A stretch of DNA of 64,000 nucleotides, taken from contig NC_009635.1 of the NCBI RefSeq assembly GCF_000017185.1, positions 994,563 through 1,058,562 of the forward strand, written 5' to 3'. Source of the DNA: Methanococcus aeolicus Nankai-3 (GTDB lineage: Archaea; AGJL01; Methanococci; Methanococcales; Methanococcaceae). Shown here piece by piece: positions 56,801-61,026 of the stretch (the first letter of the stretch is position 1; each line of letters opens with the position of its first letter). Position numbers and translations under genes: made by a program. The notes under the pieces are model-generated. The model was given only the letters and a program-made list of their open reading frames with translations. It made no database searches and had not been told where the DNA came from.

Positions 56801-58144
56801 TTAATTTAAAATATCTGTATTGTATCGTTTAATTCCTCCAATATTTTCCACAGTTCTTATAAGGGAGCTCCTCAAATTTTCTAAATCTTGTTTTTTAAAT
56901 GAATATATTCTAAATGTGATACTTTTATATCCTTCCTGTATGGGAGCTCCTTTATAAACATCAATTATTTCAATATTATATTTACTTTTTAATAATTCTA
57001 GTATTATATCAATGTCTATATTATCTTTAAATAAAAATGAAATATCATTATAATATTTTTTTAAATTTGCCTCCTTCCATTGTTTTAATTCTTCTTTTGT
57101 CATTAAATTGGTATTTGCAATGCTTAATTTTAAATCCTTGCCTTGTTTATCCAATATTATAAAATCATCAACTACATCTTTCACAATTCCAAAATGAACT
57201 TTATTGGAGTAGGCATGTTTTAAACCAGCCTCTTTACCAATTGATTTTTTTAGCTTATCTACTTCCCGAGTTATTGCCCCTACGGCTTTATCAGAATAAT
57301 TCATTCCTTTTATAGTTTCATTTCCAAAGTGTTTTGAGGATTCTTTCATTAGTTTTGCAAATGCTTCTCTGTCGTTGTTTTCAACTATTTCCTTTATTTT
57401 TTCGCACTCATTTATAAATGTTTGATGAATATCATTTATTTGTGGATTGTGCATCTGTATATCGGCATACAAATAAGGATTTTGCCCAATAATTCTTGCT
57501 ATAATATTTATCATTAATTCATATATTGGGGAGGCGTATTTTCGCGATTCTTTTATATCTATATTCAACTCCCTTAATGTCGAACCAAGAACTATATATG
57601 AATAATGAGTTAGTCCCTGAACAACGCCCATAATTTTATCATGTTTTTCTGGTGGAATTATAATTACCCGGGCCCCCTCTTCTTCAAAAAAGTTTTTTAT
57701 TTTAATAAACCAGGGGTTATTTTCATGTTCCTTGGTAGGTGGTGTTAATATAACAACCTGCCTTCTTAAAGATGGCGTAGAAGGTCCAAACATTGGATGG
57801 GTGGGCATTATAAATGTATCTTTTTTTGCATATTTTAACATGGCCTTTGTTGGAATTTCTTTTATAGAGGTAATATCCATTAAAACACAATTTTCCCTTA
57901 CATGGGGTGCCAACTCTTTAATCATCCATTCAGTAATATTTATAGGAACTGCCAAAATTACAATATCTCCTTTTTTTGTGGCTTCAATATTGTCCTGCGT
58001 ATATATTACCCCCAATTCTTTTTCAACTGCTTCTCCTTTTTCTTTATCTCTACCACTAACTATTACAGAATATCCTTTACTGCTTAAATATTTTGCAAAC
58101 CATTTCCCTAATCCATCTGTTCCGCCTATTATTGATATTATCAT
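56801..58144 (-). CDS. tyrA: Prephenate dehydrogenase with C-terminal FDX-ACB-like domain
   Basis: 447 residues. N-terminal nucleotide-binding fold IIGGTDGLGKWFAKYL (~5), VSGRDKEKG, then the helical dehydrogenase domain with PTHPMFGPSTPSL (~110) and QGLTHYSYIVLG (~185). It oxidises prephenate for tyrosine synthesis. Residues ~365-447 (DISFLF, then DVYKGAPIQEGYKSITFRI, ending IGGIKR) match the ferredoxin-fold anticodon-binding domain found at the end of PheRS-beta. In a tyrosine-pathway enzyme this could be a regulatory or RNA-binding module. Start ATG 58144 follows AAGGAATATT; the open frame upstream is not used. Confidence 0.85.
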   Translation of the reverse strand: MIISIIGGTDGLGKWFAKYLSSKGYSVIVSGRDKEKGEAVEKELGVIYTQDNIEATKKGDIVILAVPINITEWMIKELAPHVRENCVLMDITSIKEIPTKAMLKYAKKDTFIMPTHPMFGPSTPSLRRQVVILTPPTKEHENNPWFIKIKNFFEEEGARVIIIPPEKHDKIMGVVQGLTHYSYIVLGSTLRELNIDIKESRKYASPIYELMINIIARIIGQNPYLYADIQMHNPQINDIHQTFINECEKIKEIVENNDREAFAKLMKESSKHFGNETIKGMNYSDKAVGAITREVDKLKKSIGKEAGLKHAYSNKVHFGIVKDVVDDFIILDKQGKDLKLSIANTNLMTKEELKQWKEANLKKYYNDISFLFKDNIDIDIILELLKSKYNIEIIDVYKGAPIQEGYKSITFRIYSFKKQDLENLRSSLIRTVENIGGIKRYNTDILN

Positions 58145-58219
58145 AATATTCCTTTTTTTATTATTTTTTATTATATTGTATAAATAATGATATGATATAT
58201 TAGATAATTTATTATATAT

Positions 58220-58394
58220 ATAGTGAATCGACAGATAAATTAGGCTAATCAAAGATTGGCTAAACCCCGTGTGGGCTTTATTTTCAAAAAACCGTCGGTT
58301 TTTTTTCATCCGTCGATGTTCGTAGTATCCGAACATATTGCTAGTATTTTTCTTATATGCTATCCTTGAGGTATGGCGTCCGTCGATTTACTAT
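58220..58394. repeat. Terminal-inverted-repeat element, related to family A
   Basis: Left ATAGTGAATCGACAGA, right inverted ATAGTAAATCGACGGA (14 of 16 identical). Inside is a hairpin AAAACCG/CGGTTTT and ATGTTCG...CGAACAT. It lies between the tyrA start and tRNA-Cys. Ends resemble ATAGTCAATCTTCGGA of family A. Confidence 0.6.
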
Positions 58395-58540: not shown

Positions 58541-58614
58541 GCCAAGGTAGTCTAGTCCGGCGAGGCAGCGGACTGCAGATCCGCTTCAGAAGGGTTCAAA
58601 TCCCTTCCTTGGCT
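58541..58614 (+). tRNA. tRNA-Cys (anticodon GCA)
   Basis: 74 nt, no encoded CCA. Acceptor GCCAAGG/CCTTGGC, anticodon arm GCGGA-CTGCAGA-TCCGC with anticodon GCA, T-arm AAGGGTTCAAATCCCTT, discriminator U, the base recognised by Cys-charging enzymes. In many methanogens it is charged first with phosphoserine and converted to Cys. It lies upstream of hmd. Confidence 0.95.
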
Positions 58615-58823: not shown

Positions 58824-59852
58824 TTGAAAGTAGCAATATTAGGAGCAGGATGTTATAGGTCCCATGCAGCATGTGGTATTACAAACTTTTCAAGAGCAGC
58901 AGAAGTTGCAAATAAAGTAGGAATTCCGGAAATAACAATGACTCATTCAACTATCACGATGGGGGCAGAATTATTACATTTAGTAGATGAAATTGATGAA
59001 GTTGTTGTTTCAGACCCATGCTTTGCAGAAGAACCGGGTTTAATTATAATTGACGAATTTGACTGTAAAGAAGTAATGGAAGCTCATTTAGCAGGAAAAG
59101 CAGAGGATGTAATGCCAGCTATTAGGGATGCTGTTAAAGCTAAGGCAAAAGATTCGCCAAAACCACCAAAAGGATGTATCCACTTTGTTAATCCAGAAAA
59201 AGTTGGATTAAAAGTTACATCAGACGACAGAGAAGCTATTGAAGGAGCCGATATAGTAATTACATGGTTACCAAAAGGAGGAAGCCAGCCAGCAATTATT
59301 GAAAAATTCGTAGATGCAATAAAAGAAGGAGCTATTGTAACACATGCATGCACCATTCCAACACCAAAATTCGCAAAAATCTTTAAAGATTTAGGAAGAG
59401 AAGATTTAAACATTGTATCATTCCATCCAGGATGTGTTCCTGAAATGAAAGGACAAGTATATTTATCAGAAGGATATGCTAGTGAAGAAGCTGTTGAGAA
59501 ATTATACAAAATCGCAAAAATATCAAGAGGAACAGCATTTAAAATGCCAGCTAACTTAATTAGTCCTGTATGTGATATGGGTTCAGCTGTTACAGCACCA
59601 GTTTATGCTGCAATATTATCATACAGAGATGCAGTTACAAACATTTTAGGAGCTCCTGCTGATTTCGCTCAAATGATGGCAGACGAAGCTATTACTCAAA
59701 TGTTAGAATTAATGAGAAATGAAGGAATACAAAATATGGAAAACAAATTAAACCCAGGAGCATTAACCGGAACAGCAGACAGTATGTGCTTTGGTCCATT
59801 GTCAGAATTACTTCCAGCTTCATTGAAAGTTCTCGAAGAACACAAAAAATAA
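58824..59852 (+). CDS. hmd: H2-forming methylenetetrahydromethanopterin dehydrogenase ([Fe]-hydrogenase)
   Basis: 342 residues. The N-terminal Rossmann domain MKVAILGAGCYRSHAACGIT carries His14; the iron-ligand cysteine is Cys176 in THACTIPTPKF, both as in the active enzyme, so this is Hmd and not an inactive paralogue. The C-terminal helical domain forms the dimer (DMGSAVTAPVYAAIL). It makes methylene-H4MPT from methenyl-H4MPT and H2 without nickel. Start TTG 58824 follows a strong GAGGTGATATT. The cofactor genes hcgA and hcgG lie downstream on the same strand. Confidence 0.96.
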   Translation: MKVAILGAGCYRSHAACGITNFSRAAEVANKVGIPEITMTHSTITMGAELLHLVDEIDEVVVSDPCFAEEPGLIIIDEFDCKEVMEAHLAGKAEDVMPAIRDAVKAKAKDSPKPPKGCIHFVNPEKVGLKVTSDDREAIEGADIVITWLPKGGSQPAIIEKFVDAIKEGAIVTHACTIPTPKFAKIFKDLGREDLNIVSFHPGCVPEMKGQVYLSEGYASEEAVEKLYKIAKISRGTAFKMPANLISPVCDMGSAVTAPVYAAILSYRDAVTNILGAPADFAQMMADEAITQMLELMRNEGIQNMENKLNPGALTGTADSMCFGPLSELLPASLKVLEEHKK

Positions 59853-59991
59853 TTAATAAATATTTATAATCCCATATTTTCTTTTTTTTAACATTTTTAT
59901 GTCATAAGAATAATTTATTTTTAAATTAAATATATTAAATTTATAAACCTCCACAGGCAACCAATATAATATATAATAAATCGGTGATTTA

Positions 59992-61026
59992 ATGGATTTT
60001 TCACACATACGGGACAATTTTGAAAATTTAAAAGAAGATACTTCCAAAGAAAACCTAAAAAACGGACTAATATCAAAAGAAGATGCCTTAAAGTTATTTA
60101 ATATTTCCAAAGGTAATGATTATTTAAATTTATTCAGTATTGCATCAGAAGTAAGGGACTATTTTAAAAAAGAAATAGAAATAATATCTTCAATCCATAT
60201 CACCAATATATGTTCCGTAAATCCGAAATGTTATTATTGTGGTTTCGCGGCGGGAACTTCAAAGGAAGGATATTATGAGCCATTTAGAACGACAGACGAA
60301 GAAATAAAAAATTCCGCAATAGCAATTGAAAAAAGTGGAATTATGAGAGTTAGCTGTTCCTCAGCACATGGATATGGGGGCAAAGAAACATTACGAACTT
60401 TGAAAATAGTTAAAGAAAATACAAATTTAGAAGTTTTAGTAAATGCTGGGGCAGATTTTACAGAAAACTGCATAAAAGAATTAAAAAAACATGACATCGA
60501 TATAATTTGCTGTAATTTAGAAACCATTAATAATAAAGTATTTAAATCAGTTAAACCAGGGGAAGATTTAGAAAATAGAATAAATATCTGTAAATTGGTA
60601 AAAAAATATGATATAAATTTATCATCTGGTTTATTGTTAGGAATAGGGGAAAGTTATGAGGATAGGGCAAATCATTTATTGTTTTTAAAGGAGCTCCCTG
60701 TGGATGAAATTCCTATAATGGGATTTAATCCATATAAAGATACACCGATGGAAAACCATCCAAAATGTTCGGCGTTGGAACAGGCTAAAACTATTGCCAT
60801 AAGTAGGTTGATGTTTCCAGATATTAGAATTACATCACCAACCCCAACAATTGGAGCGGAGCTTGTTCAATTTGCACTAATGGGAGGGGCAAGCAACATA
60901 GCAACCGTAATACCAGACAACCACCCAATGAATATAAAAGGAGTGGGAAATCCAAAAACGGGCAATTTAAAAGAAGTTGTTAAAATGATTGAAGAGTTAG
61001 GACTAACTCCAAAAATAAAAAAATAA
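59992..61026 (+). CDS. hcgA: Radical SAM protein HcgA (HmdB), Fe-guanylylpyridinol cofactor synthesis
   Basis: 344 residues. It resembles biotin synthase but with the unusual cluster motif C74-x5-C80-x2-C83 (CSVNPKCYYCGF), the mark of HcgA. It binds a [4Fe-4S] cluster and SAM and is thought to help make the pyridinol part of the [Fe]-hydrogenase cofactor. GGTGATTTA before the ATG. It follows hmd by 139 bp with 11 bp before the next gene, so the hcg genes form an operon. Confidence 0.94.
   Translation: MDFSHIRDNFENLKEDTSKENLKNGLISKEDALKLFNISKGNDYLNLFSIASEVRDYFKKEIEIISSIHITNICSVNPKCYYCGFAAGTSKEGYYEPFRTTDEEIKNSAIAIEKSGIMRVSCSSAHGYGGKETLRTLKIVKENTNLEVLVNAGADFTENCIKELKKHDIDIICCNLETINNKVFKSVKPGEDLENRINICKLVKKYDINLSSGLLLGIGESYEDRANHLLFLKELPVDEIPIMGFNPYKDTPMENHPKCSALEQAKTIAISRLMFPDIRITSPTPTIGAELVQFALMGGASNIATVIPDNHPMNIKGVGNPKTGNLKEVVKMIEELGLTPKIKK

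Follow-up and report, generated by a model that had tools for sequence, protein, structure and literature searches.

A phenylalanyl-tRNA synthetase-type anticodon-binding domain with a conserved G34 pocket on archaeal prephenate dehydrogenase: possible regulation of tyrosine synthesis by tRNA

Why should an enzyme of tyrosine biosynthesis end in a domain otherwise known from a tRNA synthetase? The question is raised by the prephenate dehydrogenase gene (tyrA) of Methanococcus aeolicus Nankai-3, which lies in a 64,000-nucleotide stretch of the genome (NC_009635.1, positions 994,563 to 1,058,562) that was analysed as a whole and is here called the window. Control of amino-acid biosynthetic enzymes is normally exerted by the amino acid they serve to make. 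The fusion as such has been recorded before. In 2005 its tail, the carboxy extension of some archaeal TyrA proteins, was named 'REG' (COG4937), classed as a predicted regulatory domain and suggested to have a regulatory role (Song et al., 2005; PMC1173090), and the TyrA/FDX-ACB combination is found by Pfam. An earlier note on the window had assigned the last residues of TyrA to the FDX-ACB family and had proposed that they sense either phenylalanine or tRNA-Phe. Its expectation that the domain would already be present in domain databases holds for both Pfam and NCBIfam.

The tyrA gene occupies positions 56801 to 58144 on the minus strand, with an ATG start codon at 58144 and the stop codon at 56803-56801, and codes for a protein of 447 residues. 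The longest open reading frame at the locus is a 511-residue frame, 64 codons longer, which begins at an upstream ATG at 58336. All aligned relatives start at MIISIIGGTDGLG, i.e. at the equivalent of 58144. The start was moved from 58336 to 58144 because homology begins there, and the latter is very probably the true start of the gene. The extra 64 residues encoded from the upstream ATG (58145-58336) show no conservation.

The catalytic part of the protein is that of a prephenate dehydrogenase. The nucleotide-binding domain PDH_N (PF02153, E 4.8e-38) is encoded at 57662-58099 on the minus strand, with a GGTDGLG Rossmann motif directly before the Pfam match, and the dimerisation domain PDH_C (PF20463, E 6.8e-31) at 57341-57652 on the same strand. 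The NCBIfam model PRK08655.1-4 spans the whole protein with 839.7 bits (cut-off 498), and this full-length match together with PDH_N and PDH_C places the protein in the TyrA-REG (PRK08655) family. The protein does not belong to PheRS-beta, as everything outside the tail is TyrA, without catalytic-like or editing domains. TyrA is also the sole PDH_N match of the genome, and in seven related genomes (family f28) tyrA is found in an aro cluster; together, these two findings mark TyrA as the pathway enzyme. By inspection, the cluster was seen to contain genes for shikimate dehydrogenase, dehydroquinate dehydratase, a dehydroquinate synthase-like protein and the aldolase-type first enzyme of the archaeal pathway.

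The tyrA neighbourhoods of relatives were compared, and no aminoacyl-tRNA synthetase or tRNA genes were found as conserved neighbours of tyrA. About 400 bases upstream of tyrA, the opposite strand of the window carries a gene for tRNA-Cys (58541-58614), whose anticodon GCA makes it another G34 tRNA; this arrangement is not shared with the relatives examined. The region 58824-61026 contains hmd, coding for the H2-forming methylene-H4MPT dehydrogenase, and an HmdB-like radical SAM gene (both named by inspection), which are divergent from tyrA.

To judge from sequence profiles and predicted structure, the tail of TyrA is almost certainly a genuine FDX-ACB domain and a homologue of B8, the corresponding domain of PheRS-beta in bacteria. 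Pfam, profile-profile and fold comparisons (hhalign and Foldseek) agree on this assignment and place the domain at residues 364-440, encoded at 56825-57055 on the minus strand. The motifs quoted in the earlier note are present, and its interval (56801-57050) is essentially the same. The PF03147 profile, which the note had proposed to run, does match the region. In the 511-residue frame it scored E 6.7e-07 and 30.1 bits, slightly below the cut-off of 31.1, and with the C-terminus or the genome frame as query it rose above that value (32.6-32.9 bits). Diverse TyrA homologues were collected from 36 genomes of the same phylum, from named contigs including Candidatus Methanoperedens and from a domain-wide archaeal sample; 31 of 33 gave the Pfam match individually, with a best E value of 2.2e-12. 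In addition, a search of the PDB with a profile built from the aligned tails (A3) retrieved PheRS-beta chains of bacteria (E 2.7e-05). When the same alignment was compared with three PheRS B8 domains by hhalign, a probability of 97.4 and an E value of 9.9e-12 were obtained over 85 columns, reaching the terminal arginine.

Structure prediction leads to the same family. The last 147 residues, modelled with AlphaFold at a mean pLDDT of 87.5, are predicted to form a five-stranded barrel, a helix and then a ferredoxin-like domain of beta-alpha-beta-beta-alpha topology. A last strand, residues 438-442, is added in the model of the whole protein, where the dimerisation domain is poorly predicted (mean pLDDT of 73.9). 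The top PDB matches found by Foldseek were PheRS-beta B8 domains and human mitochondrial PheRS, including the tRNA-bound structure 3tup, and the top 25 fold matches of the tail were mostly PheRS entries. PheRS B8 domains superposed at about 2.2-2.8 Å over 87-95 columns in the matches that aligned this domain alone.

ACT domains are ferredoxin-like as well and occur further down the same Foldseek list, from rank 41. The tail could then be a small-molecule sensor, i.e. an FDX-ACB fold turned ACT-like that binds tyrosine or phenylalanine for feedback inhibition. Bacillus, among others, has TyrA fused to ACT, and the prephenate dehydrogenase activity of M. maripaludis is inhibited by tyrosine (cited in PMC1173090). 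Such inhibition would be compatible with regulation through the tail, but it is not specific evidence for it, since it may arise at the active site. Against a sensor of this kind, no ACT profile matched TyrA in Pfam at E values up to 10, and ACT was absent from the Pfam families listed for the 33 homologous tails. An ACT identity of the tail was rejected for want of a profile match. Also, base contacts of PheRS make up four of the domain's five best-conserved positions, a pattern for which an amino-acid sensor offers no evident reason. An ACT-like sensor is thus unlikely. The proposal of the earlier note that free phenylalanine is sensed found no support either, since in PheRS the domain contacts the anticodon.

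Between PDH_C and the FDX-ACB domain lies a further element, which is missing from the earlier note and is covered by no Pfam family. The AlphaFold model predicts it to be a five-stranded SH3/Sm-like barrel (residues 304-348, 57101-57235, minus strand). This tentative assignment is suggested by the strand pattern, by weak Pfam matches of the region to the RimP-C SH3 domain in two of 33 members and by the presence of MscS, which combines Sm-like and ferredoxin-like domains, among the Foldseek matches of the barrel plus FDX-ACB segment. The barrel is mildly basic (pI 8.2), and its residues S313, H317 and G319 are invariant in 33 sequences.

The arrangement is widespread in archaea. Among 394 archaeal genomes sampled, PDH_N was found in 216, a two-domain tail profile (barrel plus FDX-ACB) in 99 and PF03147 in 81. 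The tail-profile matches sit on TyrA in all 99 genomes. Similarly, all 81 PF03147 matches are TyrA tails and fall within the tail-profile match bar a few codons, as compared by eye from the coordinates. In the sampled archaea, Pfam-detectable FDX-ACB occurs only at the end of TyrA. PheRS-beta of the window genome is of the separate archaeal type, with 561 residues and no FDX-ACB domain (pheT at G000:C1:1441058-1442719). The occurrence in other Methanococcales that the earlier note had thought likely was confirmed, and the control genome of M. jannaschii also gave a PF03147 match. A pattern scan of contigs, with patterns biased to Methanococcales, returned archaea alone. The distribution described here refers to archaea; bacteria were represented by named control genomes only.

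The Pfam match is missing from 18 of the 99 genomes with the tail profile, and three of these 18 have lost the FDX-ACB domain. In these three (G019-G021; loci L068, L069 and L070), all from one related genus, TyrA stops just past the barrel and the FDX-ACB domain is cleanly gone. The tail is therefore presumably dispensable for the reaction, and the loss provides a natural deletion for biochemical comparison. The archaeal TyrA proteins of family f11 (L123, L139 and L140) carry another kind of C-terminal extension, about 124 residues long and without a match to the REG profile. On a tree of TyrA catalytic cores, the presence of the tail needs five state changes, and monophyly of the tail-bearing plus truncated TyrA proteins was not rejected by the AU test (p-AU 0.099). 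These results are compatible with one ancient fusion followed by losses, a reading that is soft owing to several long branches.

What the tail does is suggested by the residues with which PheRS reads its tRNA. In Thermus thermophilus PheRS, Asp729, Ser742 and Arg780 hold G34, the first anticodon base of tRNA-Phe, with Tyr731 stacking on it (PMC9976931); these residue numbers were verified against the PDB chain sequence. The G34 contacts of human mitochondrial PheRS are Asp364, Ser375, Arg414 and Phe366; the Asp364Gly variant has no detectable activity, and A35 and A36 are minor determinants (PMC7540514). The B8 domains of T. thermophilus and E. coli PheRS were aligned with 77 TyrA tails. The two hydrogen-bonding residues Asp729 and Ser742 align with D395 (codon at 56960-56962) and S408 (56921-56923) of TyrA, the stacking Tyr731 with Y397 (56954-56956) and the third hydrogen-bonding residue, Arg780, with R440 (56825-56827), all encoded on the minus strand.

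These four positions hardly vary. The first is D in 74 of 77 sequences and E in three, the second Y in 75 and F in two, the third S in 76 and T in one, and the fourth R in all 77, where in 40 sequences it is the final residue of the protein. As combinations, DYSR occurs 71 times, EYSR three times, DFSR twice and DYTR once. All the exceptions (D/E, Y/F and S/T) are thus chemically conservative, and the change of Y to F is the state of human mitochondrial PheRS. Ranked by weighted column entropy over the 77 sequences (mean pairwise identity 38%), D395, Y397, S408 and R440 take ranks 2 to 5 of the 77 domain positions, with G436 alone higher. If positions are treated as equivalent, four named ones would all be among the top five with a probability of 5/1,353,275, or about 4e-6. 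At the level of aligned residues, the G34 pocket of PheRS is preserved complete in the TyrA tail. In contrast, the TLTDEE-type motif of PheRS, which lies away from the pocket, is found in none of the 77 TyrA tails. Conservation of the quartet together with loss of this motif argues for binding of guanine in the same manner and is the strongest evidence presented here. The pocket has probably been selected to bind a guanine base.

Such conservation also bears on whether the tail is a vestige of an old fusion, a structural domain that serves stability or oligomerisation only. Its loss in a few lineages would suit this explanation, but a vestige would be expected to keep its hydrophobic core and lose its pocket, and here the pocket is more conserved than the core. 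A vestigial role is highly improbable.

A conserved D/Y/S/R set recognizes the guanine base itself, and the pocket might therefore hold free GTP, GDP or another guanine nucleotide and act as an energy or nucleotide sensor. This is very unlikely: no phosphate-binding motif was noticed in the tail, the adjoining barrel could act as a second RNA contact, and no FDX-ACB domain is known to bind free nucleotides. The ligand is probably tRNA, as far as the conserved contacts indicate. With a median pI of 5.6, the FDX-ACB part is slightly acidic, which counts against RNA binding. G34 is common to many archaeal tRNAs, so the pocket alone gives no specificity. The tRNA named in the earlier note, tRNA-Phe, is not singled out by the conserved contacts; because these read G34, and A35 and A36 matter little in human mitochondrial PheRS, tRNA-Tyr (GUA) fits as well as tRNA-Phe (GAA). 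For an enzyme of tyrosine synthesis, tRNA-Tyr would be the more natural signal.

In the mechanism proposed, the tail recognizes a G34 tRNA, likeliest tRNA-Tyr and/or tRNA-Phe, by its anticodon loop, with specificity arising from additional contacts, perhaps by the barrel or the catalytic core. The bound tRNA would be an allosteric effector of the dehydrogenase, altering its activity or its sensitivity to tyrosine, and the commitment of prephenate to tyrosine would then track the state of the tRNA pool. The three genomes with a truncated TyrA and the lack of conserved tRNA or synthetase genes beside tyrA speak against this proposal. Going by the sequence evidence, regulation of TyrA by tRNA has about an even chance of being right, and so does the overall reading, in which the tail binds a G34 tRNA as allosteric regulator of TyrA. 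Its most specific form, in which archaeal TyrA is gated by tRNA-Tyr or tRNA-Phe, whose G34 the tail reads, so that the free tRNA pool sets tyrosine synthesis, is offered tentatively and is somewhat doubtful.

Conservation of the pocket would be accounted for equally by binding without allostery. The tail might recruit tRNA, perhaps also the cognate synthetase, for localization or channelling of tyrosine synthesis, or bind another RNA such as its own mRNA. The product of TyrA requires transamination to become tyrosine, and channelling to TyrRS is unlikely because this product is a precursor still awaiting that step. Binding to its own mRNA is opposed by 19 tyrA leaders (18 relatives and the window), in which no conserved anticodon-like hairpin was found upstream of the gene. 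Autoregulation through a leader hairpin of this type was rejected for the same reason. Recruitment or RNA binding without allostery is, on balance, rather unlikely. If allosteric regulation by tRNA is true, methanogens and other archaea would possess a direct readout of the translation machinery at the level of the enzyme, with no transcriptional step, and the 'predicted regulatory domain' named in 2005 would be explained. The preserved quartet makes the question amenable to point mutants.

The closest known system is TyrA-REG itself (COG4937; PRK08655), of which the window TyrA is a member. In the literature searched, COG4937 was met in PMC1173090 only, where the word anticodon does not occur, and neither a published mechanism for the REG domain nor a paper linking prephenate dehydrogenase to FDX-ACB or to an 'anticodon-binding domain' was found. 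The present analysis adds to the description in PMC1173090 that the tail is an FDX-ACB domain with a preserved G34 pocket, that a putative SH3/Sm-like barrel precedes it and that it occurs only on TyrA in the sampled archaea; the first and the last of these, i.e. the preserved pocket and the restriction to TyrA, are apparently new. Homology by profile and predicted fold links the TyrA tail to domain B8 of PheRS from bacteria and mitochondria (PF03147), whose four G34-contact residues it keeps. The tail differs in sitting on a metabolic dehydrogenase, in its length (about 77 versus 94 positions) and in having lost the TLTDEE-type motif. TyrA-ACT of the Bacillus type (PDB 5uyy) likewise carries a C-terminal ferredoxin-like domain of presumed regulatory function. 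That domain belongs to another family, ACT, which binds amino acids. A broader likeness is seen with HisZ, a HisRS paralogue that regulates HisG and is derived from the catalytic part of the synthetase. There too, a piece of a synthetase was recruited to an amino-acid biosynthetic enzyme; in TyrA the piece would be the anticodon module instead. By this analogy, the TyrA tail appears to fit a pattern in which parts of synthetases are recruited by enzymes of amino-acid metabolism.
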